Origin: Capitulum mitella
Lineage: Eukaryota; Arthropoda; Thecostraca; Pollicipedomorpha; Pollicipedidae
DNA: 64,000 nt
Direction of reading: 5' to 3'
NCBI GenBank assembly: GCA_030062745.1
Contig: CP099851.1
Span: 5,271,661 to 5,335,660 of the forward strand
The notes beneath the pieces are model-generated. The model made no database searches, was not told where the DNA came from, and saw nothing but the letters and a program-made list of their open reading frames with translations. Positions 9,301 through 63,017 of this stretch are shown here, piece by piece (the stretch's first letter is position 1; every line of letters begins with the position of its first letter). The position numbers were made by a program, and so were the translations under genes.

Positions 9301-12099
9301 TAAATTTCTGCTCGGACGACAGACACTGTCTTCTGGAGGTCCTCCCAGAACTTTTGAGAAGCCATTTCCGTCTGGGGACGGAAATGCTTTTCTAATGGAA
9401 AACGCGACGAACAAAATTAAGTAAAACGCTTCCCAGAAACGCTTACTGAACCGTCAAAAACACGTTCGGGTTGCTGCCCTTTACGGGAATTACCTTTTGT
9501 CGTAACCACGGAAAGCATTCGGACATGTTAATTACTTGGGAAAATTAGCAGATGCAGAATGTAAGACCATAGCTCCACGGCCTGGTAATTATTACCAAAC
9601 GCTGTTGTTGATGGTAACTGTTGGTCCAGTGGCCGTGCTCTGGTTGACCTCAGGCCGAAACGGCGTCACCCGCTGGAGGGCTGTTGTTCAGTGACCGTCC
9701 CATGATGACCTCAGGTCGATCTGGTGTCAACTGCTGGAAGACTATTGTCCGGTGACCGCCCTCGGGCCTTCCTGGAGGATTGTTCAGTGGTCGTCCTCTG
9801 GTGACCTTCGGTCGAGCCGGTGTCGGGCTGTTGTTAAGTGATTATCGACCTGTTGTGACCCCAGGTCGAGCCGGTGTCACCTGCTGGAGGGAGCCTGCCT
9901 GTCGTCTCCCCGGTGGCTGTCTCTGCTGGTGGCCGAGATGTTCTACCCGCACCAGACGTTCCCGCTGCCGGCGGCCGCCCCCGCCCAGCGGGCGCCCGTG
10001 GCCGCCCAGCCACCGCCCGCAGAATCGGCCGACCAGCAGCTGCAGGAGAGGGCCGGGCAGCCGGCGGCGGCAGCAGCCGGCCGCGACTACTGCGACGGCA
10101 CCGACGAGCTCGGCTGTTACCAGGTGAGACCGAGGGGACGGACCAGCTCTGTTGCTATCAGGTGAGGCTGAGGGACGGACCAGCTCGGCTGCTGCCAGGT
10201 CAGACTGAGAGACGGACCAGCCGGGCTGCTTCTAGGTGAGGCTAAGGGGCTGGCCAGTGGGGCATAACTTACCCACGCACAGCTTCTCTCGTCTGCTCCT
10301 TCTGCTGTCCCCCGGAGCGGTGGGCTCGTGTGCCCTCCCCTGCTGTCTGCTGAGATCTCGTCTGGCATTCTCTGCTGCCTGGGATGCCATGCCGCCCGCT
10401 TGTTTTTTTTTTCGCTGAGCGGAAATTTCATCTGCTCACGTTTTCTACCTGCTGCTTGGTGATCTCCTCTAGTCTCCTCTGCTGCCCGCCGGTTGGTGAT
10501 TTTCTCTAATCTCCTCTGCTGCCCGCTGGTTGGTGATTTTCTCTAATCTCCTCTGCTGCCCGCTGGTTGGTGATCTCCTCTAATCTCCTCTGCTGCCCGC
10601 TGGTTGGTGATCTCCTCTAATCTCCTCTGCTGCCCGCTGGTTGGTGATTTTCTCTAATCTCCTCTGCTGCCCGCTGGTTGGTGATTTTCTCTAATCTCCT
10701 CTGCTGCCCGCTGGTTGGCGATTTTCTCTAATCTCCTCTGCTGCCCGCTGGTTGGTGATCTCTAATCTCCTCTGCTGCCCGCTGGTTGGTGATTTTCTCT
10801 AATCTCCTCTGCTGCCTGCTGGTTGGTGATCTCCTCTAATCTCCTCTGCTGCCCGCTGGTTGGCGATCTCCTCTAATCTCCTCTGCTGCCTGCCGATTGG
10901 TGATTTCCTCTTGCCTGCTCTGCTGCCCTCCGAGCAGTGGCCTCATCTGCGGCCGGCTGGGTACCCGCGAGCTCGTTGTTTTTGTTCTGCCGCCAAAACT
11001 GCCGGCCGGACGGGTTTTAATCAGCCGACCACTCGGCCCCGTCTGTGTATTTGTCCGATGGCCAGATGGTCGAGCCTCTGGTCGCTGCGGAAACGCCAGC
11101 GGCCTGGCCTGATAGATGCCGCTTCGGACGAGCAAAGTTCGGCGATAAGGCTGACAAAGAACGGAGCGCTCGGCCTCATGTAGTTTGACTCATTGTGCTA
11201 TTTGTTTTAACCAATGGGTGCCTTACTTAATGTGCCGCGTTCTCGACTGGCTGAGGTGATGTATTTTGGTTGCTTTGCCAGACATCTGGCTTTACTTATG
11301 AACATTCTGATCTCGTTTTGGCAGGCTTATTAGTTATACTCGTAACTAGTGTTACCGAACTACAAGCCAGCGGTCTGGCAATGTTGCTTATGACGCTGCG
11401 CTGGACCATGAAAGGGACCATCCTAGCTGTCATATGTTTTTAGTTTTTTTTTTTAATTTAGAAACAACACGAGAAATATTTAACCATATCATTTGACCTA
11501 GCACTCCCTCATAAGGGCCTGGAATGACCAATTTGATATCGAATTGGCAAAATTTGACAACCGCCTGCCGCGTTCTCATTCAAAACTCATGTTTTCCTAG
11601 CTATTAAACATAGTGGTGCTAATATCAATAAGCTTTCACTACTTTTTAATGGTTATGTATGATAACAGTATGACTTTGAGTTCATGTTCATTCAGTCATC
11701 TGGGTAGTCTAACAACTGCGTCATAACGTGGCCATGTTCATCTGTATTGATCTATAAGGCATGTCCCTGCCGAAGCTGCGCACTCAAAGTGAGGTGCCTT
11801 GGGATGCGAGGACCCCTCCCCCTTCTTTAGAGGCTGGACGTTTACCCTTTGCCTATACTAAAAGGAAGACAGTTCCTTTGATCGCTAGGCTAGGTTAGGC
11901 CCGCCCTCTGCCCTTGGCAAAGTTCCTGGTGCGTCGCTGCCCTACAGTACCCTACTGTGACGGTGTATCCCGCGCGTGCCGACAGGTCCGTCTCTACTAC
12001 GACTGGTTCCTGGTCCCCGGCAGCTGTAAGTGCTGGAAACAGGACGTGTTCGCCCAGTACCGGGCCGGACCACGCGCGCCCAAGAGCGTGGCCCTCTGA
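3230..12099 (+). CDS. spz3: Spatzle 3-like cytokine, 3' four exons (join 3230..3370, 6466..6705, 9865..10123, 11986..12099)
   Basis: Secreted cystine-knot cytokine of the Spatzle (arthropod neurotrophin-like) family, whose members act as Toll-receptor ligands. The four exons give 250 visible residues and every junction is phase-compatible (2-2, 2-2, 0-0). Order: a propeptide part with an R-G-K-R furin-type site (bases 3261-3272), then C-D-T-N-W-G-V-F-C, an acidic Ser-rich linker, then the knot beginning PCPSVVDYVTPVFARNYEG. Other motifs are WRYVVQIP, TQTIEVTSC, RCH, CLSSPRW, YCDG, GCYQ, RLYYDWFLVPGSCKCW. I recognise these as the Spz3 pattern, in particular VAE-FYP and LYYDWFL-PGSCKCW. A Pro/Ala/Gln-rich stretch of about 45 residues separates the middle cysteines. 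A start codon and signal peptide are not seen, so at least one upstream exon is missing. Exons are GC-rich and introns are not. Confidence in the family is high; the 3230 exon is the least certain part. Confidence 0.88.
3371..6465 (+). other. spz3 intron with 42/84-bp tandem repeat and CpG-rich block
   Basis: Gene-free intron. At 3959-4128 a ~42-bp unit (cagacccggtcaggctgga plus cagggtcgggg) occurs four times as two 84-bp dimers. It runs directly into a very CpG-dense block (about 4130-4545) with no reading frame I can assign; it may be an internal promoter or alternative first exon. The rest is unremarkable. Confidence 0.6.
6466..6705 (+). CDS. spz3: spz3 exon (first half of cystine knot)
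   Basis: Acceptor tctacag ends at 6465 and donor gtaagt starts at 6706. After a split Val codon it encodes FCALFKGWSG, a Ser/Asp/Glu-rich linker, then the N-terminal knot strand with PCPSVVDY, VTPVFARNYEG, WRYVVQIP, EGYF and TQTIEVTSC. The aromatic-rich W-V-I beta strand followed by TQTIEV-C is the Spatzle-family core. It ends with two bases of a Val codon completed at 9865. Confidence 0.92.
6706..9600 (+). other. spz3 intron with two CpG-dense blocks
   Basis: CpG-dense stretches at about 7450-7870 and 8530-9120, including two adjacent copies of a 26-bp gactccgaggtcgactccgg unit near 7680-7733. ORFs here are GC-composition artefacts without splice or family support. Around 8070-8150 is T-rich. 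Confidence 0.6.
9600..9889 (+). repeat. ~60-bp array copying the spz3 acceptor and exon start
   Basis: Units carry tgacctcag followed by gtcgannnggtgtca and ctgctggag. AG positions are near 9653 and 9714, then two degraded copies near 9775 and 9810, and the real acceptor at 9864. The last unit spans intron and exon. Confidence 0.8.
9865..10123 (+). CDS. spz3: spz3 exon (middle of cystine knot, low-complexity insert)
   Basis: Acceptor gaccccag ends at 9864 and donor gtgaga starts at 10124. It encodes S-S-R-C-H-L-L-E-G-A-C-L-S-S-P-R-W, then LSLLVAEMFYPHQTFP, a Pro/Ala/Gln-rich insert, and finally RDYCDGTDELGCYQ at phase 0. RCH, CLSSPRW and YCDG..GCYQ supply four knot cysteines. Both ends lie inside tandem arrays that copy the junction: copies of the acceptor upstream and three copies of the donor downstream. 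Confidence 0.9.
10106..10245 (+). repeat. 37-38-bp array copying the spz3 donor and exon end
   Basis: Units of gacggaccagctcggctg plus tnccag followed by gtgaggctgag. The real donor is at 10124 and copies are at 10162, 10199 and 10236 (spacing 38, 37, 37). Two of the copies read GTGAGG. Confidence 0.88.
10440..10905 (+). repeat. 37-bp minisatellite, ~12 copies
   Basis: Consensus made of tctcctctgctgcccgctgg and ttggtgattttctctaa, with small variants. It lies in the last spz3 intron. Confidence 0.95.
10906..11985 (+). other. distal part of the last spz3 intron
   Basis: No gene and no strong repeat seen. The final ~30 bases are in frame with the last exon and spell Y-C-D-G-V-S-R-A-C-R-Q. Confidence 0.5.
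11986..12099 (+). CDS. spz3: spz3 last exon
   Basis: Acceptor gccgacag ends at 11985; the exon starts at phase 0 and ends at TGA 12097-12099. It encodes 37 residues beginning VRLYYDWFLVPGSCKCW, the family C-terminal strand with the last two knot cysteines, then KQDVFAQYR and a short basic tail. I see no clear AATAAA in the following 1 kb. The reading frame stays open upstream of the acceptor and there spells a second YCDG-like motif (see findings). Confidence 0.92.
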   Translation, partial: VRLYYDWFLVPGSCKCWKQDVFAQYRAGPRAPKSVAL

Positions 12100-13005
12100 C
12101 CGGCGCCGAGCCCGCGCCACGGACAGCGACACGGACTGCCGTCAGCAGCACGGAGACAGGGGAACGACAGGGACGGGACGGAATGGGAGCTGCCTCCGGC
12201 CGTTCAGGGCGGACAGATGGCGTCTGAAACCGAAGTGCGAACCGAACCGAACTGAGGTGCGGCTGGAAGTGCGCTTTCAGCACCATTTTCGACGAGGCCG
12301 AGTTGCTGGCGCTGGAAACCGGTAGTCTCGACGACCTGATGTACTGAGTGCGGTGACGGTGGGCGTTTGTGTAAAGTGGCATGCGCTGTAATCGCTATGC
12401 GATCGTCTATGCCGCATCGCTTCACTGCCCTGTCCTTTCGTCCTCGCGAAAACCACCTGGTCCAGTGAACGGTTTTGCGATGAGAACTGACAGAGAGAAA
12501 TCTACGCCGGTTTGTTGACATGTACGTCGCGTCAGGTCGGATGTTGTGGAAATGAAGCACCGTGTCGTGCACCATGGGGAATTGTTTTGTTAAAACATAG
12601 CAGTTACAGGCATGTTTGCGTTGGGCTTGCAGTAATAGGTGTTGTGTTTTGTTAGTTCATGCTGCCAATGAATGTAGGATTTTTGTTTGTGTTTAATGAA
12701 CCCTACTTTGGGTAGCAGCTTTGGTGTTTTCAGACGTTCGTTGGTTATGTACAGAATCATTTTCCCTGTATTTTACTTCGAGTAGTCTGAAATTACATCC
12801 ACTTTGACAAATGTCCTGGGATATTGTATGGTGAAATGAAATATCATATTACAAAATTTGTTTGGGTAAAAAAATACAATAAGGTCAAAATATTTGGTAT
12901 TGAGACTTTATTATTATATCAATATCAGCACCGACTACAGACAAAATAGGCAGAGAACGAAATAGATCTTCACATAACGCTGTAAGCACTTTACGATATT
13001 ACATA

Positions 13006-13041
13006 GAATAAGTAAGAACGATACTCATTCTTACTTATTCT
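13006..13041. repeat. perfect 14-bp inverted repeat (hairpin)
   Basis: Arms agaataagtaagaa (13006-13019) and ttcttacttattct (13028-13041) with an 8-base loop. Confidence 0.9.
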
Positions 13042-13502
13042 CATGTATGGATATCACTCACGGTGTTACTGACCTCCGCACGTGGGTCCTTCCTTGTGTC
13101 AAGGTCATATCAGGCCAGCTTTGTGAACTTGGGTCCTTTATCTTTTTTGCCTTCCATTGACCTTGGAAAGGTCAGCAAGTGTTTGGAGACGCCGATTTAC
13201 AAAACAAGGTGTTTGGGCCTATCAAAAGCACTCTGTGGGTTAAATTCCTTGAAATCCAATGGAAGCCAGAATCCATTGGGATGACCTTTTTGAAGTCTCC
13301 TTTGAGCTCACTGTCTGACTAAAAATCGTCAAACCTGGTATCATCTCATAGTTAAAGGACCAAGCTGCAAGTGTGATTTCATTTCATTGCTTTAGCAAGT
13401 CAAAGGTGGGAATGGCTCTGTAGTCATACCCCCTGACCTGTTGAAGGCGTCCAAATGGCAAATACCAATGAGGGCCAATTAGTTTGGCCCAAGGCATCAG
13501 AA

Positions 13503-13835
13503 ATTGTATTTTAAACATTGTGTCAAAGCTGGAATCGTGACAATGTTTTGCTGACGTCGTTTAATATGTAATCTCTACTGAGGAGAAGACTCAACGCCTC
13601 ACACCCCGGCGAGGCCCCAAGAGAAAAAAAGGGCGGGGAGTACACGTACAAAAGAAGAAGAAAAAAAAAGGAAAAAAAAAAAAAAAAAAAAAAAAAAAAA
13701 CAAAAAAGCGCTCAGTATCAGAGGAGGGAGGGGGGCCCCTCCCTTTTGCAAAAAAGGGCAAATATGTGTGGAAGAAATGGGGGGAAAAATAAATGGTTCC
13801 CAATTAAAAAAACCCCCAAAAATTGAGAAGAAAAA

Positions 13836-13874
<39 letters not shown>

Positions 13875-13910
13875 TTTTTTTATTTTTTTTTTAAAAAATA
13901 AAAAAAAAAA

Positions 13911-13962
<52 letters not shown>

Positions 13963-14250
13963 GAGGTTATACAAACATAAATGGATAGCAGGATGCTGGG
14001 GTAAGACGGACCACTTGTGGTCCATCTTCCCTTTTTTTGTGCTGATTTTGACTCGTCCCCCTTTAAGAGCAGCACCACAAATTTCTTGAATTTAAATCCA
14101 GCGTTGACGTATCGAAAGAGGAAAGAATCACATGAGTGAAAATGGAGGCTGGTAGTGAGAAATACAATGGGCAATTAGTTGCCATGAATTGTTTTTAAAC
14201 ATTGTGTCAAGGCTGGAATCGTGGCAATGTTTTGCTGAAGTCGTTTAATG
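13503..14250 (+). repeat. direct repeats flanking the low-complexity block
   Basis: The block with ttaaacattgtgtcaa, gctggaatcgtg, caatgttttgctga and gtcgtttaat occurs at about 13512-13567 and 14197-14250, same orientation, ~685 bp apart. Confidence 0.8.
13630..13965. repeat. poly-A/poly-T low-complexity block
   Basis: Long alternating runs of A and T, some over 20 bases, with scattered G/C. It looks like a simple-sequence region poorly resolved by the assembly. Confidence 0.9.
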
Positions 14251-14924
14251 TAATTTATAAACTACATCTCCAGTTGGCGGCATTGCGTCAGGTTTTGGCC
14301 ATTGCGTCATTGCGTCATACACCAGGCCAGAGCAAATGATCCGACCTCGCAAGATGATTACCATGAAGGCCAGAACTAGATACTAGTGTTAACCCGCCAC
14401 TGACTGGGCGGGACATTTAACCCTTCTGCGCCCACCCTCGAGGACAAATTTCTTAAATATCGCCCAAAGAAATAAACGCAGCGTCTCGAAACTTTTTGTG
14501 CCTTTCTTACATGAACTATGCAGAGGCTGACAAAAAAAAAAACGTAAAAATGGAAGCAAGATCATCCTAGGTCATATCTAAATGACGTCATAAAGACCAC
14601 CATGTTTCGCGATTTGACGTTCGATCCCACTTCGCCTTCGTAATGTTAGTGCCTTTTACATTGCATAGTGACAGGAACTTGCAATCAGCATGACCTAGAG
14701 AATTCAATATAGAGCGCCAATGACCTCATGCTAGATCATCCCAGGTCAGATGTGCATTTTGCACTTTCCGGGTTCAGTGAGAATACATTTTACCAACGGA
14801 ACTGACCAAACTGATTTCCGGGTACGACCGTCTAGATTATCGCATTTTCTTGCACGATATTGCCCATACATAGAACTTGTGTTTGATGTCCCAAGATCGC
14901 ACGGTTCGGCGCTAACCATTTCAG

Positions 14925-15045
14925 TTTGAGTCAGCGAAATCGAGCTACGGCTTCTAGAGACAGACTGGGTTGTCTTAAGTGCCACCCCCAGTCAATGGAA
15001 GTTGGCGAAATACCCCAGTCAATGCCCGGGTTAAAAGGAACGATA
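14925..15045 (+). repeat. dispersed repeat, copy A
   Basis: Shares ggcgaaataccccagtcaat, tctagagacagac and ggttgtc with the reverse complement of 24240-24372. Two copies are seen in this window. Confidence 0.55.
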
Positions 15046-15689
15046 TTCGTTCCAAATCTGCTGTGGTTTTTGGAGCGTGGACAACAGCGTTTGATCAATA
15101 TGACCACAGACGTCCGACTCAGAATTATGGGAATATTTGTCAGACAGATGGTTTGCCGAAACACCAAAAGAATGAGGAAGAGCGGAAAGCTACTCGTAAC
15201 CCACCACTGACTGTGGTATCTATCACAATGGTGTGACGCCATTACCTGAGGGAACAAAAACTACTCCCTCCAGGATCTAAGAGAAAGGTTTCAGAGATTT
15301 AAAAACCATTACATAGCCCTGCATCGTACAAACTCGGAAAAGAATGGAAATTAAGTTCCGGGCCATAATCAGGCCACCAGTCATGCTCACATTTTGAAAA
15401 TATTGCTTGTTAATGACAGGCTAGCAAGATAAGATGTCGCTTGCCATTTGAAGCCTATGAAAAAAAGTAAATGAAATACTTCAGTTATATTATGCACAAC
15501 AATCCCGGCAATACCTTTTTGCTGTTCAGGTCACGGATCAAGGTTGAATGAGGCCAATATCCTGCAGTGTGTAATCTCAGGAGCTACCAGACCGGTCGGT
15601 GAAATCAGAAAATCCATAGCCCTACGTCACGCAATCGCGAAAAGCTGCTCCACGGCCTTCAAATGGCTGTCACAACTTGCGCTTTGACG

Positions 15690-16470
15690 GAAATTGGCAC
15701 TCACTACCGTCAGACCACAAATTCAAATTCTGCACGACATCCCCAGTTACAGAGGAAAATTTTGCGACCACTGTCTTCTCCCTGTTTCGAAAACCAAAAA
15801 TCACGGAATAGCCTTTGATCGCTCTATCAGGTGGGACTCCCACGTAGTCGCCGTTACCAGGCGCTGCTTGGAAACTCTAAGTGGTCGATCACATCCAAGG
15901 GACTTCCTGCCGTCGTCCGTCATCTCCGCTCTGGTCAATGCTCTGGTTCTCTCGCAGATCCGATATGGAACCTCAATATATGGCAATGGTACGCAAATAC
16001 CCGTCTCGCCTCCAGTAAATGATTAACGCAGTAGTTAAGTTCTTTTCGGCCTGAGAATATTGGATCATGTGTCGGATCTGCTACGGAGACCGGGCTGCCT
16101 CAGCGCGGATAACCTGATCTTGTGCCATAGGCTGTGCCTGGCGCACAATGTTCGATGCCTGGGCGAGCCTGAGGCTCTGGCCACTGAGATCTCATGTGTG
16201 GCGGAGCATCGCGACCGACAGACCAGGCAGGATGGCAATCTGCATGTCCCGAGATCTCGCACGGAAATAGGTCGGAGGCGTTTTTGCAGTCGTGCGGCGG
16301 GGCAGCTCAGCTCGATGGGACCCGGTCTGCCGCGGCTCCCCATCTCCCTGCTTGGTCGCCACCTGAGACGCCACCCGAGCGGAGAGCCTGGCGTATGCGC
16401 CATCCGACAATGTGCTGTTTTGTCGCGTCTCGTTTCTAGCCGCCGAAATGACTGTGATTGCACGTAATGT
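15690..16470 (+). pseudogene. non-LTR retrotransposon reverse transcriptase relic (3' part of ORF2)
   Basis: Translated fragments in the plus frames resemble the thumb and C-terminal part of jockey/CR1-like RT proteins. 15694-16026 has G-I-A-F-D-R-S-I-R-W-D-S-H-V, TRRC, LPSSVISALVNALVLSQIRY and YGNGTQ. 16060-16467 has DHVSDLLRR, LCLAHNVRCLGEPEALA and NLHVPRSRTE. Stops separate the pieces, the palm with the catalytic Asp pair is missing, and no endonuclease is seen, so it is a dead, 5'-truncated copy. Clade assignment is from memory of the C-terminal pattern only. Confidence 0.7.
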
Positions 16471-16479
16471 ATGCATGTG

Positions 16480-18170
16480 ACGACCAACTACCTCTTGCTT
16501 TGTCTTTTAGACATGAGGCCGTAATAGCCGCGAGCCCATCGCGGATGGCTTCGATAAGCTTCGACAGGCGTCTGGGTCTGAGTCTAAATTGAAAAGTCAC
16601 AAATCATATTCGGCCATGATCGCTTAATATGAGGTCAATATGTTATATACCAATCTTTTATGTCACAAAGACTAGTACTGAACTGCACTGCCTTCCAACT
16701 CATGCGTATAACCAAAGAATATTGAACAAACGAATTCAAGTGGGGTGGCAAAATCGTAAACATCGACAAAATCGTAACAAAGACGGCCTTAAAAGACCGT
16801 GCCAAAAATCATATCCTTGTATGTGCGAAATTGATGTAAAAAGGCACTGAAAGCTCGATATCGCTCCCTGTGTTCGTTTTTTCGGTTATCTCGAAAATTG
16901 GCCGGAGTCATCATTTGTTTCCTCAGCCAATGAAGGGTCAAATGCTCCAATGAATGCAAATCCAAAATACTTGTACTTCTTCCTCCTAATAAAACTGCAT
17001 TTTTCGGCACCTACCGTATTTCCCAGCAAACAGGAAACGCCTGTCCATCCTTTGAAAGGTATCATGTGAATAGATGATGGTCCTTACTGTTGTTCACTCT
17101 GAAAAAAGCACTGATGCATCTGCCATTTTTACTGCCGTGGGTAGCAGTTCTATTTCATAAGGCGCCATATTGCACTAATGCCTATATGGGGATTGGCACC
17201 ACACCATCACCACCGCCTTTTTACGAACACTTTGTCGCCCGTAGCTGCGTCAAAGCCATACAGTGATGTAATATTCCGACGGGCAAAGAGGCCTTTTCAG
17301 CGTTCATCAGGCATTCATCCGACGTCCAGCAGGCCGAGGGAAGGCTGATGGAGTCCTTCCACGCGCGAGTCGGCATCAGTTTCGTCCTCGCGCTCGAGAG
17401 ACGGTGACCGGCGTGCGGCAAACTGGCCACGCGGAACACCCGGCAACGACTTTCATCGACCGGCGGCGTCATTTGGGGAGAAGGGGAGGGGCAGGATCAC
17501 CTCGGGGCGATCGACCGCCGCCAGGCATCGAAGTGGAAGAGACGAGGACCAAATTTGACAGTCAGTTTCGGTGATCGCAGGCAGTGAGGCAGCGCCGGCC
17601 AGCAGGATTCGACTGGCAGGCCCGGAGGCGGGAGTCGGCTGGCAGGACGGGGCCAGGTGGGAGGGAAATGTACGACTGGCGAGCCGGTTTTAGCCAAGAC
17701 AGTGCGCTTTCAGAAGTTGCCTGGGAAGTTTGGCAGCTGCAGCTCGGACGGCAGCTTTTAGCTTGAGTTTCAGCGAGGCACTTTCCAATGCCATCGTTTT
17801 ATTGGTGCCTGAGAACACCTGCACAGCTGCACTGACGAAGGAATTTCCCATCCATTACTAAACCAGCGTTATCCCAGAAGACCAGCTGTGCCCACTCAGA
17901 CCAGCGTCAACGTCTCTTTCGTTAGTGTCTCGCTAGTGAACACAGCAGGTTACGAAAATGATGCAGATGGACTTGTTTGACTTTTCGCGTTCGCCTTGTT
18001 ATCGCGAAAGCTGCAGCGTTGTAATTACAACTAGCGCAGACGTGTCGAGATGGTGCACCGAACAAGAACAGAAATGAAATTGGCAGTGCTCAGTGACACT
18101 GCCATGGTGTCGATGCACAGAGGCAATCAGGGGTTCAGCGTGCCCCAAAGCCAGAGCCGCTTGTCCGCCT
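16480..18170. other. intergenic, nothing recognised
   Basis: No convincing gene or repeat seen; moderate GC with short chance ORFs. Confidence 0.5.
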
Positions 18171-18179
18171 AAAATTTGA

Positions 18180-18588
18180 AATCCGCTGCCCTGGCGGATT
18201 TACAGAGGCGCAATGCGCAGGAATCACCTCGGCCCCGGAGAGGATTGCACCGTCCAGAGCCGGTCGCAGCGTCCGCTACAAGTCCGCCCACTTGGAACCA
18301 ACTACCTCTGAACTCGTCCCTCCCCGCCCCCGCCACCGCCGCCGCCGCCGGGGCCCCGTCGCGATCGATGCGGCCGCGCAGGCGGCCGGCCGACCCGAGG
18401 TCAGGTCGTCTCCGCAGACGGCGCGGCGCCGGCCGTCGCCGCCGACGAGGCCAGTGAGGGCGACGTGTGCGCGGACGGCGGACGGCCGTCGGCGGCGGCG
18501 GACGGCGGTGTCGGCGGCGGCGGGCGTCGCTCCTCCGCCAATCGATGGCGCAGCAGTGCCGGCGCTGCGGCGGCCGCGGCTGAACAGG
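18180..18588 (+). promoter_or_regulatory. CpG-dense block with a good donor: candidate promoter/leader exon
   Basis: About 75% GC with many CpG. It ends at gctgaacag followed by gtgagc (18588), a strong donor on the plus strand. One frame is open for about 70 codons into that donor but would not match the phase of the exon at 25667, so a noncoding 5'UTR exon for the AKAP-like gene is the simplest reading. Transcript data would be needed to confirm. Confidence 0.35.
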
Positions 18589-18589
18589 T

Positions 18590-19040
18590 GAGCTGGAGCC
18601 AGGTGCGGCCGGCCGGCGGCGAGCGGCCGCACCACGGGCACCGCACCAGGCCGAGCGTCCGGGGAGCAGCTGCGGCTGAACCGGCAGCAGGGGAGCAGCG
18701 GAGACTGGGAGAGCAACAGGGGAGCGGTATCGAGGGAAGGTCGCAGCTAGGTGAGCATCGGGAGCAGCCGCGTGGAATTAGCCGGGAGTAGATCACGGGA
18801 GCCGCTGCAGCTCAGGGCGGATCAGGGATGCTGCCGCAGCTCAGTTCTGGTGGGGAGAATAGCCAGGGCTGGTTGAGTGTGAAAAGAGTAACTTGAGCTT
18901 GACGAGATCAGGAGAGCTGTCAAAGCTCAGGGCGGACAGGGAGATTTATCAGGGTTAGCGGAGGATCAGGAAGGCTGGGGCTGGGCAAAATCAGTGGAGC
19001 TGCCAAAGCTGGATAGGACCAGAGGAGCTGCTCTGACTAC
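18590..19040 (+). repeat. degenerate minisatellite after the 18588 donor
   Basis: Imperfect repeats built on ggatcaggggagctgc, cgcagctcagggc and gggagcagc. Units are too diverged for a firm period. Confidence 0.5.
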
Positions 19041-19059
19041 GAGAAGATCTTAGAAGAGT

Positions 19060-25640: not shown

Positions 25641-25674
25641 CCCACTAACCCCAGCCCGTCCGGCAGGAGCGGCC

Positions 25675-31900: not shown

Positions 31901-33594
31901 TTTCCTCCACACATCAGAGGGAGTGTCTCGGCTGTATGTCTGCCAGCTGATATGTTGAGGTCTGTTGTTGTGCTTCAGTCAACGGCTCAACGAGGCTATC
32001 TTTCAGCCGGCAACTGAGCTGTGTTGTCATGTTTCAGCCGGCGTCTGGGCTGTGCTGTCGTGTTTCAGCCGGAAACTGAACTGTGCTGTCGTGTTTCAGC
32101 TGTCGTCTGAACCACATTGTCGTGTTCCAGCCAGCGTATGAGCTGTGTTGTGTTTCAGCTGTCGTCTGAGCTGCATTGTTGTGTTTCAGCCGGTGGCTGA
32201 GCTGTGTTGCCCTGTTTCAGCCAGCAGCTGATCTGTGATGTCGTGTCTCAACCAGCGGCTGACCTGAGTTGCATTCCAGCCGGCGACCCAGGAGTGTTAT
32301 CGTGTTTCAGTCGGCGACTTATATGTGTTGTGCTTCAGCCGGCGGCTGAGTTGTGCTGTCGTGTTTCAGCTGGCAGCTGATCCGTGCTGTGTTTCAGCCG
32401 GCGGCTGAGCTGTGTTGTCATGTTTCAGCCGCCGGCTGAGATGTGCTGCCGTGTTTCAGCCCGCAGCTCATCTGTGATTTCGTGTTTCAGGCGTCGGCTG
32501 AGCTAAATTGCCGTGTTTCATCTGGCGACTGAGCTGGATTGTCTTATTTCTGCCGGCGGCTGAGTTGTGCTGTCGTGTTTCAGCCAGCGGCTCCCTCAGC
32601 CCGGACGACCTCTCGCTGGAGCTGGAGCGGGCGAAGCTGCGGAACGACCCCGGCCTGCTGGCGGTGGCCAACCGCCTGGTGCAGGAGGTGCTCCGGAAGG
32701 CGCGCGAGGAGGCCGTCAGGCGGATCTCCCAGGAGAGCAAGGCCCGGACTCAGGTACGCGGGGAGACCGGCCGCGGACGGACCAGCACGGGGAGACCGTT
32801 CGAGGCCGGGTCTGCCGCCTGTAAGCTCACGAGCGCCCGGAGGAGGTACAAGGAGCAGGCACAGCGAAACCGAAGACTGGGAAGGAGGCAGGAATGTGTT
32901 TGGTAAAGAAAGGCCTGGGCAAGGTGCTCGCGTGGCCTGGGGTGATTATATTGGGAAAATATCCAGAGGATCAATGAGCACGCAAGAAGGATTAGCCGAC
33001 GACGAGCAGGCCATGACCTTTGGCGGCGCAGGCAGCTCGTTGAGGCCTGGGGAAATTCTGCTCGCAAGCAGGGGAATAGTTTCTGCGATACACTTGGCCG
33101 CAGCCCACAGAGTAACCGAATTATCTTGCATATGCACCCGCAGCCGTCACCATCCCCGCTTAAGTCCAGTTTTACATGTTTAATGCTGTTGATTAAGAAA
33201 TCTGGTGCGCTGTGCTAACTCGGTTAATCTTTTGTCTTAATCCTTCGTATCACCACAATATCCACGCCGTAAATGCCTTATAACTGGATCCGTTTGCCTC
33301 ACCTCTTCACATTTCGCGCTGGCTTCACCGCAGCTCTCCGGAGTTTTTCCCCTGTGCAATAGCCTGCCTCGGCGTCGTTTTTGCGCCTCGCGGCACGCTG
33401 CAGTGGCCGAGCTCGCCGTCGCTGAGCCGTCTGATTGTGTGCCGCAGGTCGGCTTCACCTCGTCGGAGCCGTTCCCGGCGGCGCCGCAGCCGTCCGCCGG
33501 CCGGCGGCGGCGGCGCGCCGAGTGGGAGCAGCGGCTGCGCGGCGTCTTCTACGCCTTCTTCTCCTGCTTCGGCCTGCGGCGAGCCTCGTTCTGA
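25675..33594 (+). CDS. candidate small A-kinase anchoring protein, 207 aa (join 25675..25981, 32584..32753, 33448..33594)
   Basis: Family not recognised. The three exons join in phase (1-1, then 0-0) into 207 residues from ATG 25675 to TGA 33594. Residues 1-102 are a Ser/Pro-rich, probably disordered region starting MSERRAERPA. Residues 107-153 form an acidic-to-amphipathic helix. A131-N-R-L-V-Q-E-V-L-R-K-A142 fits the published PKA-RII-binding consensus (small hydrophobic at 1, 4, 5, 8, 9, 12). Residues 178-182 are five Arg; residues 188-201 include an aromatic stretch (VFYAFFSCFG). The protein ends LRRASF, an R-R-x-S-hydrophobic PKA consensus close to the kemptide core. I infer anchoring of PKA by a protein that is also its substrate. 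It could instead be a coiled-coil scaffold unrelated to PKA. No signal peptide is seen. Confidence 0.75.
25982..31964 (+). other. first coding intron of the AKAP-like gene
   Basis: No internal exon recognised. It contains a ~45-bp imperfect minisatellite (listed separately), a short direct repeat of tcttgttcttatcctcga at 29592 and 29623, and a G-rich stretch near 30715-30735. The remainder is unremarkable. Confidence 0.6.
27530..28110 (+). repeat. imperfect ~45-bp minisatellite
   Basis: Recurring cagtcagcagagttttcctc, gctgtctctggccag and related variants from 27530 to about 27780, with diverged units again at 27975-28110. Confidence 0.65.
31965..32592 (+). repeat. ~31-bp array copying the AKAP exon 2 acceptor
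   Basis: About 19-20 units of gctgtgctgtcgtgtttcag plus ccggcggctga. Most units have a pyrimidine stretch and TTTCAG. The last unit is the real intron-exon junction and its ccagcggct is exon sequence. Confidence 0.92.
32584..32753 (+). CDS. candidate AKAP exon 2 (RII-binding helix)
   Basis: Acceptor gtgtttcag ends at 32583 and donor gtacgc starts at 32754. Two bases complete the split codon from exon 1, then come 56 codons: SGSLSPDDLSLELE, RAKLRNDPGLLA, VANRLVQEVLRKAREEAVRR and ISQESKARTQ. The acceptor is the last unit of a ~31-bp array in which every unit carries a near-identical tttcag. Confidence 0.82.
32754..33447 (+). other. second intron of the AKAP-like gene
   Basis: No repeat array and no additional exon seen. 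Short GC-biased ORFs are not supported by splice signals. Confidence 0.6.
33448..33594 (+). CDS. candidate AKAP exon 3 (poly-Arg, LRRASF C-terminus)
   Basis: Acceptor gtgccgcag ends at 33447; phase 0; TGA at 33592-33594. It encodes VGFTSSEPFPAAPQPSAG, five Arg, AEWEQRLRGVFYAFFSCFG and LRRASF. The aromatic VFYAFFSCF segment is too short and too flanked by charge for a clear membrane span. A Cys inside it could be lipidated, which is speculation. Confidence 0.78.
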   Translation, partial: VGFTSSEPFPAAPQPSAGRRRRRAEWEQRLRGVFYAFFSCFGLRRASF

Positions 33595-36787: not shown

Positions 36788-37145
36788 GCTGGGTTAGGTT
36801 AGATAAGGTTAGGTTAGGTTAGGTTAGGCTAGGTTAGGTTAGGCTAGGTTAGGTTAGGTTAGGTTAGATTAGGTTAGGGTAAATTTTTATTTATTGTTTT
36901 ATTTCACCTCCTAATATTTTCCAGTTTTGTTCCGTGATTTCTTGTGCTGGGCTAGGTTAGATAAGGTTAGTTTAGGTTAGGTTAGGTTAGGTTAGGTTAG
37001 GTTAGGTTGGGTTAGGCCAGGCTAGGCTAGGTTAGGTTAGGTTAGGTTAGGTTAGGTTTGGTTACTACGTTAGGCTAGGGTAAATTTTTATTTCTTGTTT
37101 TATTTCACTTCCTAATGTTTTCCAGTTTTGTTCCGTTATTTCTTT
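36788..37145 (+). repeat. duplicated unit: TTAGG array plus 70-bp tail
   Basis: Two TTAGG-type arrays (36790-36880 and 36951-37080), each headed by ctgggytaggttagataagg and followed by the same AT-rich tail (agggtaaatttttattt ... ccagttttgttccg). The ~160-200-bp compound unit is tandemly duplicated. Interstitial, not a chromosome end, because ordinary sequence lies on both sides. Confidence 0.9.
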
Positions 37146-45547: not shown

Positions 45548-45599
<52 letters not shown>

Positions 45600-46230: not shown

Positions 46231-48250
46231 ATGAAATTATTCGGACCAAATTCACAAAAAAAGAAAAATACGCCCCATTTACTGTCTTCTCATAGCTGGC
46301 TACAAAGACCCGAGAAACGTCCTGGATCTCAAGGTCCGTGAGGAAGAATTCACGAAGACTAGGTAAAGGTGCGAACGGATGGGTAGATATTCGGAGATAC
46401 CGATACGGATTTAATATCTCTGATTTGTTGAGTCTTTACTCGAATAGGTATGTGCTGCGCGGCACTAGAAGACACATGCATTGTACGGTGTAAACAAACC
46501 TTCCACTCCTTCCTTCACAACGAGAGTTTGTCCGTGATTGGCTCAAAGGTTAGCGTACCTTTGTATATGCCTACACTTTTTGTTTCTGTCCCATTGGCCG
46601 GTCAAGGTCGGGCCCAATCATAGGCCTATGATAATTTTTCCTCATCGTTATCTTCATCGTCCAGCCAATCACAGGCCCGTGACAATTTTTTTCTTCACCA
46701 TCTTCGTCGTCGACTTGTGTAATACTGTATTTGTGTTTGTGCACTTTTTTCAGGAAGTATAGCTGCATAACTGTGCCTTAAAATGCATTCCACTTGTCTC
46801 GTAGAGGGTCTTTAGGCCATGGGAATAACCTGAACAGCAGAAATCGTGGTTTTGTGGGGATACATTCGGTCTATTTGCGGATTCGCCTTTTTCGCAGGAG
46901 AGGGATCCAGTACATCCAGTACCTCCCTTCCCCCCAAGAGCGGGTGTCCGCTGTAGAGCGGTTTCTGCGTCACAGTGCCGCGGGCGCCGGAACCGTACGT
47001 TGGATGAAATTGACGGATACTCATTTTGGTGCTCCTTTGTTTTGGTGGAATAATCCCTGTAAAGTGGTGTCGTTTCACACTGCAGGCTTGCGTCCTGGTT
47101 TTTCATGTTAAATGTTTGAAAAAAATCAATGGTTACAGTTATAAACAATTGGTGAAGCCTTATTCACGCAAGCTCTTTTATTTGCAAACTTAACGACTTT
47201 TCATTTCATTTTTAACTTACTGGCATCATTTACAACGTTGAGAACCAGATCTGCCATTCTCTATCTGTTTCAGGTCATTCATCGCTGATTTTTAGGGGGT
47301 GCATTTTTGCTTCGGCTAGTAATTGGTGACCCGACCTCGGGTCAATGGTTGCACGTCAGTGATTAGAAGTTTTGACCGTCTCATACCCAAAACGTCGCGG
47401 AAAATGTTGTCAGTTTCTGAAAAACGACGACATGTGTTGAAAATGGGCATTACCTTGGGTCAACGACCCGGAAGTTTGCGAAAATCAGACAGCAGATTTA
47501 TTGCATCTTTTGAGACGGCTAGTCCTAGAAAGTTCTGTTTTTTTTTGAAGACGTTACGGAAGGCTAAACACGTCTGGACACAGGTCCACTGTGCCTGACC
47601 CAGATTGAAGATCTGACTCGACCTGAGGTCAATATTTTGATGCAAGATGTGAGAAGAATCAAGCAAAAGTTGCACAAAATTTCGTGGCGCTGCGTTTGTT
47701 CGTTCTCTCATAAGCTTGAAAGACCACGGGGTGGGGTGGGGTGTCAACGACCCCCCATTCGGGGCCGGAATAGACGAAATTAATCCATGTTTTGTATTAT
47801 GATAATGAATTCGAAAATAATTAACGATAGAACTGCATTTGCTCCGCTTCTCAAGCAAAACAATAATTCGGGTGAGCGAAATACTGTAACATATCATCTT
47901 GGAATCATTTCACATCTCAATATTAGCAGAAGTTTGATATTTGACTTTCAGCAGAAAATGATGACCTCTTCAACCCTCCCAAAACTTCGATGATTGTCCT
48001 TGTGATACATTTTTGTTCTCGTTGGGTCCGATATTAATAGTCACTACAAAACAGCCTCGACAACAGAACCCAAGTATTCCCGAGCTTTCACATCAAGACT
48101 GTCCGAAACAAGTTAAAACGCGCGTGGGTGACGTCACGAATCATTCAAACCATCACCTTTCCCTTCTTAAACAAAGATTTCGAATGCTATATACACTGTC
48201 TTGTGTCAAAGGCCTAGACGACTTGGGAGTCGTGACGTGCGGCAAGATGG
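46231..48250. other. intergenic, no gene recognised
   Basis: Aggtca-bearing noncoding repeat-like sequence around 47320-47640 and a GT-rich hairpin-like stretch near 47735-47765. Nothing else named. Confidence 0.5.
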
Positions 48251-48252
48251 CG

Positions 48253-48708
48253 TCAGGCGCGCAGCGCGGGGACCGCGGCGAATGTGCTGCGTCGTGCGCC
48301 GGCACTGCAAGCCGGCACCACTGGCGCTGCCGCCTTTTCACCAACTGCTGCGCCCATGTCAGGCGGAGCGTGAACATGCACTTCGAAGGAGGCAAGAACG
48401 TTATGCTCTACCGTGATATTGTCAGGCCGCCATGCGCCCTTGTCACGAATCAACACCGGATCATCTGCCTGCAGGCCAGGTTCCTGGCGAGGGCATATGA
48501 TCCTGGCCTCTTGCCGGAGCAGCATTCGGTTCCGATACTGCTCAGGCCTCGGCTCTGTCCTGCGTGAGTGAAAATCGATATCGCGCCCGTACAGCAGTCG
48601 TGCTGGAGACGGCAGTGCGTTGTCGACGGGCGTCACACGCGGTGTTCGAATGCCTGTCTGGAGCGGCAGGGAATCGCTGTAACGTTCCAGTACAATAGTC
48701 TGTATCAT
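48253..48708 (-). pseudogene. LTR retrotransposon (Ty3/gypsy-type) integrase C-terminal relic
   Basis: The minus-strand frame reads RVTPVDNALPSPARLLYGRD, then TEPRPEQYRNRMLLRQEAR and, after a decayed stretch, DDPVLIRDKGAWRP. The pattern 'P-A-R-L-L-Y-G-R' followed by 'G-D-x-V-x-I/V-R' is typical of the tail of Ty3/gypsy integrases. No protease, RT or RNase H is seen next to it and no LTRs were found. Confidence 0.6.
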
Positions 48709-48709
48709 T

Positions 48710-50350: not shown

Positions 50351-50369
50351 CAAAACACTCACAAAGAAA

Positions 50370-51760: not shown

Positions 51761-51769
51761 GCTGTGCAA

Positions 51770-54700
51770 ACCGCGGGGGGGGGGGCGGCGGCAGGTGCTC
51801 GTCAACTTCAGGCACAACATTTGACATTAACCCTATGGCGGCGCATGAAAAAAAAAACGAGGTAAAAATCACATTTGCCCCCCCCCCCCCGCCATCTGCA
51901 CAGCGGTTGCGACGCTCCTGGGTAGTGGACTGGCGCGAGGGATGCTCGGCTTCCGAACTCGAGGCTTTGAAAGAAGGGTTGTGACTTTCGCTTCCGTTTT
52001 CCACCAAGGGGTTCGCGATTGGTAGGTCGTCAAAGGGCAAGGCATCTTCATTTTTTTAATTAGGTCTATAAGCATGGTCTATAAGCATATCAGCAGGCTG
52101 GGGATTCCCAAAAAGTAATGGGTTAAGGGGGATCCACACAAAATTTCAAACCATTTCTTTTCAGTCACTGCCACAGGTCTAATATTAAAATAGCTTAATA
52201 TTGGGGGTCTGGACCCCCATCCTTCGGGGTCGCCAGTCATGCATGTAAGGATGCTTGAATAACCAACTGAAGTCAGCCAACAGTTCCTACGTGGCTGGTT
52301 CCCAGAGGTCAGGAAGCTGTTTAATGTCCTACCTACCGTGACCCACAGCCAATTTATCGCTGCCTGGCCCCAATTTCGACGCATACGGGCATTCCACTTC
52401 TTCATTAGCATGAGTGGCAATTTTACTATCCATGTCTCACTTTATACGGATGTACATCTTAATTTTTTACTTGTGGGATGGCCCATCTAGTCCCGCCATC
52501 ATATCCCGCACGAGTCCCATCAAAAAGCCCAGTCAGAGCCCATGCTCACCTAAGCCCATCAAGCCCACCCATTAACCAACTGGGCATGTTGGCTAACTGG
52601 GCACAAACAACCCTCAGCTAACAGTTTCCAACCACTCACTTCAGAGTACACAGCCGCAACTCAATGGCGGCCGATTGAATCCAAGCAAGAATTTGCCGGC
52701 CGCTAACACCTACCATAGCAATAAGCATGGAGTTACCCAGTAGCGCCAGGTTTTAGTACAGGTACAGGTACAGGTACGTAACCTGGTAGTAGTTTTTCTT
52801 TCTTCAAACCCAGCACTGTATTACTTTTACTGTACTTTCAAAATCTTTGACATCTTAGGGTCTAAAACATGCGGAATTTCTAAAACAAAATACCACTATA
52901 GGAATGCAAATTCAGGGTGACATTCTGCCACAGTTGATTAAATATTGTCCTAAGCGCAATACCAGGCAACCAGTACAACGTGCTCAGTAAACAAAGAGTT
53001 GGCGCTATACCATTTTGTACAAGTTATTAATAGAGGTTATAAAGCGGCGTGAATTTAGACGTGACAGAAGAGACAGAAAGTACAAGTATTCAGACACGAT
53101 GCTAACTACTGGTTTACCACAGAAACAGTGTTAAACAGCGCTAATGTAGCTGGGCAAAGGCGACTTATCGCAGTTTTCTTAAATAAATGGCCTGCTTTTG
53201 CATTCCTGATTCAAGCTTGCGCCGAATTTCTATCAGAGTCCACGCATTCCAGACCGGCATTCCATGCCAATATCGTTACCTACCATGGTGGTGAGTATAT
53301 AACTTTCTTGTCCTCTGCTGATTCCTAAGCATACACCTATTTGGCTACGCCGTGGTTTGTCGTTGAAGTGCCATTATGTTCCATTTTTTAATTCGTACAT
53401 AAGAGTACCGCGTCACGTTTTCCCCGATCTATCTCATTTATTGTCGCGACGCCCTGATATGTATGAGTAATATTAATGATTGCAGACGTCTAGCGTTGTT
53501 CTGAAAATAAATGCCGAGACGGAAACACCCCATGAAAGCGAGTCCGTTGCAACCCAGTGACATGGGCGGAACTGTGATGGAACAGCGGGATGCACGTGCA
53601 ACCCTATCTGAACAAAAACTTACTTTATCATTACAGCTTTGCAAGGAAAGAACGGGCTTCAAAATGGGATTTGCGTCCCATGGAAGTTGGAAAGGTTTCG
53701 ACTCTGCTCAGTGAAGCTGTCGGTGACGAGGGCAAAGTTTTGTCGGTACAACGCCCTGCGTCCAAAACGGCTAGATTTTGCGTCATTCGCCTACCTTTAC
53801 GTAGAAACGAGTCCCAAACTTCATCCCTCGCGATTTCCCGCACCGTATCGCAGAGCCGGTCGGCACAAGCACGTCCGACTCGCCCAGCTGGATTTCGTTC
53901 CCAGCGTTATAAATCCGTCCTGATCCAATTTGAGTCGCGGAGCCGGTCCGCCGAACAGCACCGTCCGATCCCCGGCCAAAAACACCGACCTTCCTGTTTG
54001 TGACAACGGCGCCCGGCTGCTGCGTGCTAAAGCCCAAATGGAGACCTCAGCGGTCGGCACGGTTTACCGCCCCGCTCAGGTCGATGTGAGCTCACCACGG
54101 CGTCAGCTCACCCGGCCGTTCTCATCACGGGGTTAGCTCACCCGGCCGTGCTCACCACGGAGTCGGCTCACCCGGCCGTGCTCACCACGGCCCCGGGGCA
54201 GCTATTCTGAGACGCCACCTACGTCTTCGCTGACCTCGAACGACTGTCGTCCGCGGCTGCAGATCTGAGGGGCCGCCCGGAACCGCCGGCCCTGGTTCTG
54301 CCGACCCTGTGACCTTTTCAGGGCGGAGACCGCCTGCGGCTGTGTCGCTCGGCCGCGCAGAAAACTGGACCGCCTGGGGCAATCGACGCCGTACTCCGGT
54401 GCAGCCATGTGATCGCTCACCGCCGCGCCCCGGGGTTCTGCAGAGAAACTGTACGCTACATGGCTTTGTTACGTGATGCGTGTCATCAGCGGTGGCGACA
54501 CCAAGGGGACGTGTGACGGGGAGCCTGTCTCAGATCTTTGGGAAATTGGAGGTCATTATTTTGCCGTCGCCAAGAAAAGAGCAGCTTAAAATAGTTTCGC
54601 CTACGGTATACAGCATTTCCTTGCACCGACGCAGCCAGGGGAGAGGGGTGGAAGCGGGGCCCCGCCCCCTCCCTTAGGCCTGCATTTTTTCTTGTTTAAT

Positions 54701-57440
54701 AACATGGTCGCAGCGAACGAGGTGTCTTGCCCTATTCCAGTGACAGTGATCCATTGATTCCATTGACAATGACAGTGACGGTGATCAAAAGAACTTTCTT
54801 AGTGAAACCCATTGCATATCGTCGTCCCAGTAGGCGGTTTTCGTATCATTTCAGTTCTCACTGAGCTCCGCCCCCCTCCTCCCTTCAAGAAAATCTTGGC
54901 TGCGCCCGTTTCGTCGCTTTCGCGTTACAAGTTCATTCCTGTTTGATCCTGCGCAGGAGTGAAAATTGGCTTCGGCCGAACTCACGAGAGAGGCCAAAAG
55001 AACCAGACGAGCCGCATCAGTGCCGTGTATTGATCAGCCTGCGAGGTCACCATTCACCTGGACTCAGTCGATCGCTGGAAGCCCCGGACACCGCCAGGGC
55101 GCGTCACCACGTTGACGTCACGCGGAAGACTGGACCAGTCCGGCACACAGTGATGACGTCAGAGTCCATGCCGCTAGGCACGAGAGTAGGACTCGAGTAT
55201 GAACGCGTCGGTAGTACTCATCAAACAGACGCGGCAGTGCGCGAGAATATTTCGTTTTTGATTCGTATTCCTCCCACGTCGTAACAAGGCTGTAATGCGT
55301 CGCTGATGGGATCGATAAAATCCATTTCTGATCCAGCGTGTCTCCAATTCCAGTTCCAATCCATCCAGTGACGAATGCGTCTTGTCCATTTCCTAGCCGG
55401 CAAGCCCACACGAGTGTCCCGAGTGATACAACGCTGACCCGATTACATCCCACCAGGGTTTAGAAGAACATACGATTATACGGGATGCTACGTACAGGTC
55501 ACGGGTAAGATGCACGTGGACTGCACTTCATGGCAAGGATGTGTCGAACATCCACGGTATCCCATGTGCGTCGTGGGCGGCCACGTGGTTCAGCTGCACT
55601 TCCTGATTGAGTCGGCGGCGCGACGAGCCTGGAAAATTCAGCTGCTCGTTGCTGCCTCCTTCGGTCGGTGCCCCGGTCGTTCACGAGGGTACCTGTGGCG
55701 GCCGCAGTGGCTCGTCCAACTCGGCACCGCGGGCTGCAAGCTCTGAGTCCGACCGGCGCAAGATTCCCCTCTAGTCGTCACGCAGGTCCCAGCGGACGCC
55801 AAGGGGTGGAGGCTTTGAGTCCGGCTGGCACAAGATTTTCCTCTCCCGTGGTCAGACACGTCCAGCCGGCACTGGGAGGCTTTGCTACTGGCTCACACAC
55901 GATTCACACACCTGTTCACATCTCACGTTCTCTCATCACATCACCTGACCTGTTCACACCTCTGACGGGGAAGCTGACTCGTAGGAAATGCGCAGGCAAT
56001 TGTTCATATCAACAGATATTGCAGGGGCACTACGCATGATGCGCATGCATTGTCATGCGAACGCCCGCCAAGAAAAAGGGGGATAAACTGTAATGTTATC
56101 ACACGAAAGCCGAAAAAAGGGATAAACGAATTTCTGTTCAACGTCTGTGAATTGTTGAAATCACGCGTAGTGGAAGTTTTGCTTGTTGGTCTTGTGTTAA
56201 CCACGAAGTTGAAGAAACTGTCGTGGGACATGTTCTTAAAACTACTCTGAGCTTGTTTTAGGTATGCCTTGTGTTTCGACCTTCACGCAAATAGCAGAAG
56301 CGAGCTGTCCAAAAATATGCGTCTTCTCTTCAATCACATTTAGCAAATCTGTTTGATGCATCGCATGCCCTTTTGATTGCTATGATTGACGGGAATTAAA
56401 GAATAAGTGCGCGATGAGTGCCAAAAATTCCAGTAAAAATGCTTCTTTGAAAAAATTTAAACAGAAAATGCTTTCAAAGAACTACTCTGCAACTGCTCAT
56501 GAAAACTGTTTATGAAAAATAATGACTCCACGCCAGTCGGGGTAAAAACTCACCCTAGACACATATGACCGTCGCTGTGATGGCTGCCTTCACCCGCTGA
56601 CGTCCGTGTTTGCGAAGTTCGTGAAATTACGTCAGAAAATTCGAGCACGTCGGCCACAGACTTATGAAATATTCATCTCCCGTACCCAAATGAGTTCGCA
56701 AAGCCAGCGGAACTACTTAGCACGCTCAGGATTTTTGGCCCTTTCCCAAACCGTTTATCGCTTGAAGCCTATTGCCTAGAAGTGGAGTCGATTACTTTTA
56801 ATCAACCTTGGAGCTAGTCTGGACCAATGCTGGACCAACGGAACGCTGATACGGACAACTGCCATCCAGCACAGACTGGAACCCATCCCATTAACCACGA
56901 TGTCATTGTGCTTAGGACTTGAGATTACGTAATTCTCAAGAAATTACCGAATACCGACGCAGTCTAAAAGGTTCCGGAGCTTAACAGAATCTTACCACTA
57001 ATGAAATATCGATATACGTCAATGAATGAACAACGGCCACTGCAACCTGCTTTGCCTTCAACTCAGTGCGACAACCCAGACGGCGGGGGCCGCCAGACGT
57101 CAATCAAAACAACCCCATCCGCCGCAACAGTCACATCAGGCAGAGGTCAGCGACCTGCACAACATCTCCCTGTCTGCTGTTTCTTCCACTGCCCTTCCCC
57201 CTTTCCCGACACGCACGCCCCCTCCCCCACCCTACCACACCGGTGGCGGGGCCGTGTACTCGTGCAGTAATCACCCATCGTACCGACCGACCGTGTCACC
57301 TAGCCCACCAGATCAGACTCCCGGCTTCACTCAAACCCCTAGACTACGCGCCGCTTTGGTCTCAGACGCGACCCCGCGCCGAAACTCCGGCAACGCCGGC
57401 GAGACTGCCGAGAACGCCGCCGCAACACTACCCTTTTCGT
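51770..57440. other. intergenic, no gene recognised
   Basis: C- and G-runs at 51775 and 51880. A 31-bp array at 54085-54190 (ctcacccggccgtgctcacc plus acgg) has about 3.5 copies. A diverged ~64-bp duplicate at 55735-55850 carries gagtccg-ccggc-caagattttcc. GC-biased ORFs at 53.5-54.4 and 55.5-55.9 kb have no family or splice support. Confidence 0.5.
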
Positions 57441-57446
57441 CGCTCC

Positions 57447-57452
57447 TTTATT
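57447..57452 (-). promoter_or_regulatory. candidate poly(A) signal for PKN
   Basis: AATAAA on the minus strand, 411 bases past the PKN stop codon. Position and orientation fit; no transcript evidence. Confidence 0.4.
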
Positions 57453-57862
57453 TTACAAAATGAAGTCAAACCCTAGCCAGTTCCGTCCAAGCGCCGATAC
57501 AAAACACTGCGGATGGTAACAAATTTCGTCAGCAGGCCGCCGGGCGCCAATTACAAAACAGCGAGGCGCCGGCGCGCCCGGCTCAAGGCACCTGTTTGCA
57601 ATAACATACCATCTCCGCACGCGCGCGCGCACTACGCCGCTCGTCTACGCTGCCTACACGACTCGTCCTGGGCCCCGGCCCAGCAAACAACGTCCGGGGG
57701 GGGGGGGTCGGCGCCCCCACGGCCACTGCCGCGCAAGCGATAACACCAGTTAATAGCTGTATTACACAACACAAAATAGACGCGGCATTAACAAGCACAT
57801 GGTGAAGTCGGAGCCGGCGGATGACAGCTGCTTGAGCGGGCGGCCGTGGCGCGGCGCCGCCG

Positions 57863-62714
<4,852 letters not shown>

Positions 62715-62732
<18 letters not shown>

Positions 62733-63017
62733 CTGCCGGACACGCGCGTTCACGTCAGCACACACACAGACATACAGAGGCACCGGCGGCTCCTGCCCGA
62801 CATACGTGCTCAGGTCAGCACGCACACAGACATACAGAGGCACCGGCGGCGGCTCCTGCCCGACATATGTGCTCAGGTCAGTACGCACACAGACATAAAG
62901 AGGCACCGGCAGCGGCTCCTGCCGGACACGCGCGCTCATGTCAGTACGCACACAGACATAAAGAGGCACCGGCAGCGGCTCCTGACGGACAGACGTGCAC
63001 AGGTCAGCACACACAGA
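62715..63017 (-). repeat. ~60-bp array copying the acceptor of the PKN P-loop exon
   Basis: Five units. In plus sense each has ggcaccggcggcggctcctg followed by ccgacata-gtgctcaggtca and cgcacacagacat. The first unit is the real exon start and acceptor. Confidence 0.92.

Follow-up and report, generated by a model that had tools for sequence, protein, structure and literature searches.

Six exon edges in a 64,000-nucleotide stretch of the genome of the arthropod Capitulum mitella (contig CP099851.1, positions 5,271,661 to 5,335,660; hereafter the window) are copied in tandem in the adjoining intron. In these arrays, located at a spz3-like gene, a PKN kinase gene and a possible AKAP-like exon, the genuine exon-intron boundary is the terminal unit and the other copies are intronic, with uncertainty at positions 32584 and 62732, where the junctions themselves are unproven. 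A first-pass annotation of the window, which had drawn attention to the six junctions, knew of no described name for the pattern. Repeats of this kind are called mirages in the available parts of two papers on lancelets (PMC3087553, PMC3902484). The present arrays are probably mirages as well, that is, minisatellites that arose locally when a short stretch across an existing junction was duplicated in tandem, and that have been tolerated since.

The window belongs to a 23 Mb contig, in a genome of 477 Mb and 16 contigs. Reading frames, consensus sites and homology, in part to presumed family sequences, served to define 18 junctions in it; 14 of them lie, on our reading and again partly from such presumed sequences, within coding sequence conserved on both sides. 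An ungapped test asked whether the sequence across the exon edge recurs in the adjacent intron, with a threshold score of 20. Copies were found in this way at 6/18 junctions (scores in the table below), the remaining 12 scoring 0 to 14. The exon part within the unit amounts to 10-32 bases, and no exonward copy reached the threshold at any of the six junctions (scores 0-11). Gapped alignment likewise recovered the edge-spanning sequence in each neighbouring intron. Thus, of the first-pass claim that six junctions are the terminal units of arrays, the existence of all six arrays stands, whereas the status of 32584 and 62732 as junctions is uncertain.

In the gapped alignments, the spz3 acceptor at 9865 is copied at 9640-9680, 9706-9738 and 9791-9824, with AG kept in two of the three copies. 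The donor of the same exon, at 10123, has three copies, all with GT, and overlaps an array found by Tandem Repeats Finder (TRF) at 10103-10248; about 25 bases at each end of this exon form the exon part of its two arrays. The supposed AKAP-like acceptor is spanned by 15 copies, 13 of them with AG. Within the PKN gene, the copies of the acceptor at 58759 (58832-58885, 59035-59080 and 59212-59269) have identities of 52/54, 41/46 and 50/56 and all carry AG; those of the acceptor at 61460 (61499-61533 and 61574-61604) have identities of 32/35 and 24/31, with AG in one of the two; and the acceptor at 62732 has four copies, AG being present in all. A second array lies further on in spz3 intron 2 (10451-10928; 13 copies with a 37-bp period like that of the donor array), and may be a relic of the latter (P 0.045).

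Table. Arrays at exon edges and the exons they adjoin (positions in the window; scores from the ungapped test)
Feature	Positions	Strand	Basis
spz3 exon 2 acceptor and exon start, 3 copies, intron 1	9640..9864	+	score 25, shift 150
spz3 exon 2 donor array, 3 copies, period ~37	10124..10257	+	score 24
AKAP-like acceptor array, ~31-bp units with TTTCAG (junction uncertain)	31956..32583	+	score 48; TRF 32001-32592
PKN exon E acceptor and ~32 exon bases, 3 copies	58760..59269	-	score 50, shift 104
PKN exon C acceptor and exon start, 2 decayed copies	61461..61604	-	score 29, shift 64
PKN exon A acceptor array, 60-63-bp units (junction uncertain)	62733..63023	-	score 59; TRF 62716-63023
spz3-like exon 2	9865..10123	+	frame joins Spaetzle exon 6466-6705 with exon from 11986
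Possible AKAP-like exon	32584..32753	+	open frame, high third-position GC
PKN exon E, acceptor 58759	58619..58759	-	reading frame, presumed PKN sequence
PKN exon C, acceptor 61460	61309..61460	-	reading frame, presumed PKN sequence
PKN exon A, kinase domain start	62574..62732	-	reading frame; kinase exon follows on donor side

Among 20,000 random draws of window positions, 5.5% reached the score of 20. With 8000 draws, the background was 5.1% when any array was counted and 1.8% when copies lay in one direction only, as at the end of an array. Under uniform birth of arrays, the one-sided figure would be the fair comparison because, in a given direction, an array ends only once. The proportion of 6/18 departs from random window positions with a binomial P of 1.9e-4 (any array) or 4.6e-7 (array ending there), and from positions at most 2 kb from junctions with P 0.007 or 1.5e-5 (one-sided). 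When the junction set was shifted circularly 150 times, the count of 6 was never reached, the maximum being 5. Fifteen random 10-kb stretches from other contigs gave backgrounds of 6.6% (any) and 2.2% (one-sided). Among the conserved-coding junctions, 4/14 carry copies, corresponding to P 8e-5 (one-sided) and 0.004 (any) with the window background, and to P 1.8e-4 and 0.011 with that of the 15 random stretches. The first-pass expectation that arrays are registered on exon edges more often than chance allows is therefore borne out, both in the window (6/18 vs 1.8%) and at the kinase exon edges described next (8/79 vs 0.8%).

Exon edges elsewhere in the genome were sampled through a Pfam kinase search, which gave 138 matches; 115 were used and 23 left out, namely 13 rows covering the whole domain, the match of the window itself and 9 more that were dropped by hand. 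From 91 listed kinase regions, 42 were taken (20 + 11 + 11, the last 11 trimmed to flanks of about 500 bp), having been picked before their sequence was seen. Edges were called by rule around partial kinase matches, and 60/61 and 26/27 edges had a candidate site. Seven of the 60 were discarded by hand as non-credible junctions when the scores were already visible, none of them being at threshold. For the background, 2536 positions were taken from these flanks at depths of 100-560 bp; they follow one another in 10-bp steps, which makes them non-independent, and include inner parts of arrays. The background amounted to 2.9% (any) and 0.8% (array ending there). Copies were found at 4/53 edges in the first batch, 4/26 in the second and 8/79 together, with one-sided P values of 5e-4, 4e-4 and 2.4e-7, respectively. 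Two of the eight cases are doubtful, both donors: the copy in L044 lacks GT and the edge in L063 is not a credible donor. The count becomes 8/86 with the hand-dropped edges put back, 7/78 without the L063 donor, and 6/77 without both doubtful donors (P 3.6e-5 one-sided, 0.024 any). Copies are more frequent in the window than in the first kinase batch (6/18 vs 4/53, P 0.014), and the window therefore overstates the genome rate. Hence, the pattern reaches beyond the window, yet it is rarer outside.

Two pairs of paralogous kinase genes, each pair divided between different contigs, have copies at the same acceptor: L055/L058 (contigs C9 and C7), which we take to be GSK3-like, and L051/L052 (C8 and C12), presumably MAK-like. 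The similarity of the paralogous introns is weak, so that the copies may equally be inherited or have been born independently. Acceptors copied in both paralogues might serve to date the arrays, or might point to their repeated origin.

When window and kinase edges are considered together, copies occur at 11/50 acceptors vs 3/47 donors (P 0.04). From hand-entered values, the acceptor unit is about 104 bp long in one array and 31-70 bp long in the remaining 10, and exon sequence makes up 0.23-0.53 of it; in no unit of the 11 does the exon share exceed 0.6, and every unit thus retains a long intronic part. A branch-site-like motif, CTNAY, is found between -45 and -15 in 8/11 mirage acceptors, 16/39 other acceptors and 93/750 intron windows. 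GC content was rejected as a cause, its value over the 200 nt upstream being 0.574 at mirage acceptors vs 0.579 at the others; at the exon start, it is 0.671 vs 0.613.

The copied splice sites are not purged, their loss being no faster than that of the rest of the unit. AG or GT is kept in 26/30 window copies (22.1 expected, P 0.07) and in 39/45 copies overall (32.0 expected, P 0.01); in this sense the decoy sites are tolerated, as the first-pass annotation had envisaged. With a rough matrix, copied splice sites score like real ones. In a first column count, CAG columns stood at 0.95 vs 0.835 and branch-site columns also stood out, a result that was set aside for the latter because alignment ends inflate such columns. 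The CAG count was redone with the triplet masked during detection and the alignment ends dropped. In this masked count, 30/34 copies keep AG, and AG columns are identical in 63/68 cases vs 981/1191 elsewhere (Fisher P 0.03), the difference by array having P 0.23 (10 arrays). Constraint on the copied sites is only hinted at by these alignments. A motif search found 38 acceptor copies, although the one 1460 bases upstream of the AKAP edge (-1460) is probably a match by chance; for 16 copies the distance to the real site is divisible by three, and an open in-frame product is obtained from four only, all at PKN 62732.

The spz3 donor, AKAP and PKN 62732 arrays were searched for in the genome, by a method that skips simple repeats and very common words, and each matched only itself. 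This speaks against a dispersed element as their origin and agrees with the first-pass view that arrays were born locally and not by transposition. In the mechanism that we favour, a short stretch across the exon-intron junction would be duplicated in tandem, locally. At acceptors, the unit usually comprises a branch-site-like motif and the AG together with 10-32 bases of exon, which makes up a nearly complete 3′ splice module. Growth of the array would proceed intronward only, because exonward growth would alter the protein. The exon-proximal splice site would be the one used, probably through exon definition, and the array would be tolerated because this exon-proximal module still yields a normal mRNA. 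The exact register on exon edges, in which the first-pass annotation saw the sign of a special process, would then need no special cause, since an array overlapping the edge can only grow intronward. What needs a cause is the frequency at junctions. Because of the excess over uniform birth, the data suggest that junctions gain or keep duplications more readily than other intron sites, and it is possible that junctions are mutational hot spots, with seeding at the splice sites. In a bolder proposal, to be taken as tentative and on balance doubtful, splice junctions, and particularly acceptors, would be hot spots at which tandem duplications arise or are retained in this lineage, and the duplicated modules, reaching from branch site to exon, would be kept as functional 3′ splice sites. 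If true, there would be a standing pool of spare splice sites, a source of shifted exon edges and new introns.

Several observations weigh against interpreting the arrays as mirages in excess at junctions. TRF alone, whose arrays the first-pass annotation had proposed to intersect with exon edges, overlaps 3/18 window junctions, which is not significant (P 0.15). Measured against the looser background of any array, the kinase edges give P 0.002 together, 0.015 for the first batch and 0.21, not significant, for the second, the flanks of which are array-rich (34/374 positions). The difference in CTNAY between mirage and other acceptors is not significant (P 0.09). The start of the AKAP-like exon at 32584 is uncertain, a further AG being present at 32600, and this exon has no significant family match, RII_binding_1 having an E value of 0.78 only. 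Finally, no stop interrupts the reading frame across the four copies of the PKN 62732 array, which may thus be a coding repeat instead of a mirage. That some of the arrays are coding repeats rather than introns is nevertheless quite unlikely: among the 38 motif copies just these four are in frame and open, and differences between the three PKN 62732 units compared number 10, 4 and 4 by codon position, with no sign of coding constraint.

It may also be imagined that minisatellites arise uniformly along introns, without any junction-specific process, those at exon edges being cut off by selection and recognisable for longer because the exon copy hardly changes. This is a serious possibility, although we would not bet on it. 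The genome is indeed rich in minisatellites (54 loci in the 15 random 10-kb stretches), the looser background rises to 10% in the neighbourhood of window junctions, and selection alone would explain the edge register. However, the excess at kinase edges is about tenfold over the one-sided background, and slower decay of one copy would, by an uncomputed estimate of ours, at most about double detection. It is unlikely that the copies owe their retention to selection for a reserve or regulatory role as 3′ splice sites. The surplus of identical AG columns, the dinucleotides kept beyond expectation and the matrix scores speak for it, but the AG difference loses significance by array and the open in-frame products are confined to PKN 62732. 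Much less probable still is an origin of the introns themselves according to the Rogers model, in which an exonic segment with AGGT is duplicated in tandem, with the arrays as remnants. The end of spz3 intron 2 (11940-11985) does resemble the end of exon 2 (P 0.012, uncorrected), whereas 13 of the 14 intron-end comparisons are above 0.05, the next lowest being 0.066 and 0.084. Moreover, as the units hold both intronic and exonic sequence, the junction would predate the arrays. Assembly artefacts, for which a frame shift in PKN exon D, perhaps an assembly indel error, might be invoked, are hardly credible as a source of the arrays: most copies differ from the terminal unit, with identities of about 70-96%, and paralogous genes located on separate contigs have copies at the same acceptor. 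Tandem duplication in place across existing junctions, followed by tolerance, therefore remains the reading that we prefer.

The spz3-like gene, on the plus strand, has exons at 6466-6705 and 9865-10123 and a third from 11986. The first matches Pfam Spaetzle with an E value of 9.9e-5, below the family cut-off, and exon 2 is assigned in part from what we take to be the spz3 sequence. Six exons of the PKN gene were recognised on the minus strand, from 62732 to about 57,860; PKN2 is the best solved relative of one of them (E 1.6e-24), and exons C and E are presumably PKN exons. The linker that holds the acceptor at 62732 is not conserved. A scan of 114 of 203 open frames upstream of the window recognised no PKN exon there. 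The frame shift in exon D lies near 59,860 (open frame 59649-60212) and may be an assembly indel or a real frameshift. A strong A/T strand asymmetry, with a sense-strand T excess, extends across the PKN and spz3 introns (58001-64000 and 8001-12000). TRF also found two interstitial arrays of TTAGG type, presumably the arthropod telomere unit, at 36792-36878 and 36953-37064; together with the genes of the window, they fit an arthropod. A PH_PRMT_N match at 47463-47909 was below cut-off and set aside; in the window, Rfam gave nothing at gathering score and ARAGORN no tRNA.

If mirages exist in arthropods as well as in lancelets, they would be a recurrent feature of animal genomes. With about one exon edge in ten carrying a mirage (8/79 kinase edges), their birth, their splicing and their role in intron gain would be directly testable. 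Gene finders applied to such genomes would meet stacks of credible decoy splice sites.

Introner elements are dispersed repeats carrying splice signals. The present arrays share with them the repetition of such signals, but the many dispersed genomic copies of introners were not found for the three arrays searched. In the part of PMC4974935 available to us, intron gain by the Rogers model (ATP2A1, potato RdRp) also involves a short tandem duplication with splice signals; in potato RdRp, the duplicated intron-exon stretch gave the branch site, the tract and the 3′ site. Unlike in these cases, the duplicates described here lie within existing introns and no new intron was seen, and resemblance of intron ends to neighbouring exon ends was found in 1/14 comparisons (below 0.05). 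The closest parallel is offered by lancelet mirages, which are, as far as the available parts of the two papers go, intronic tandem repeats across a 5′ or 3′ exon-intron boundary with AG/GT signals in many copies, like the arrays here (PMC3087553, PMC3902484). They are reported there in Adh3 and the globins BflGb6 and BflGb9, with RT-PCR (reverse transcription-polymerase chain reaction) suggesting normal splicing and somatic instability detected at Adh3 (PMC3087553), and also in TnC and PGBD5 (PMC3902484). Their defining feature, exonic and intronic sequence within a boundary-spanning unit, was observed at 6/18 window junctions and 8/79 kinase edges. In contrast to the lancelet cases, the present arrays belong to an arthropod, lie mostly at acceptors, are measured against a background and are known from the DNA of a single assembly. 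Within the limited part of the literature searched, the pattern was not found in animals other than lancelets, and its occurrence in an arthropod with a measured excess appears to be new. Thus, this kind of repeat is real, named and little studied, and the animal group in which it occurs here seems to be new.

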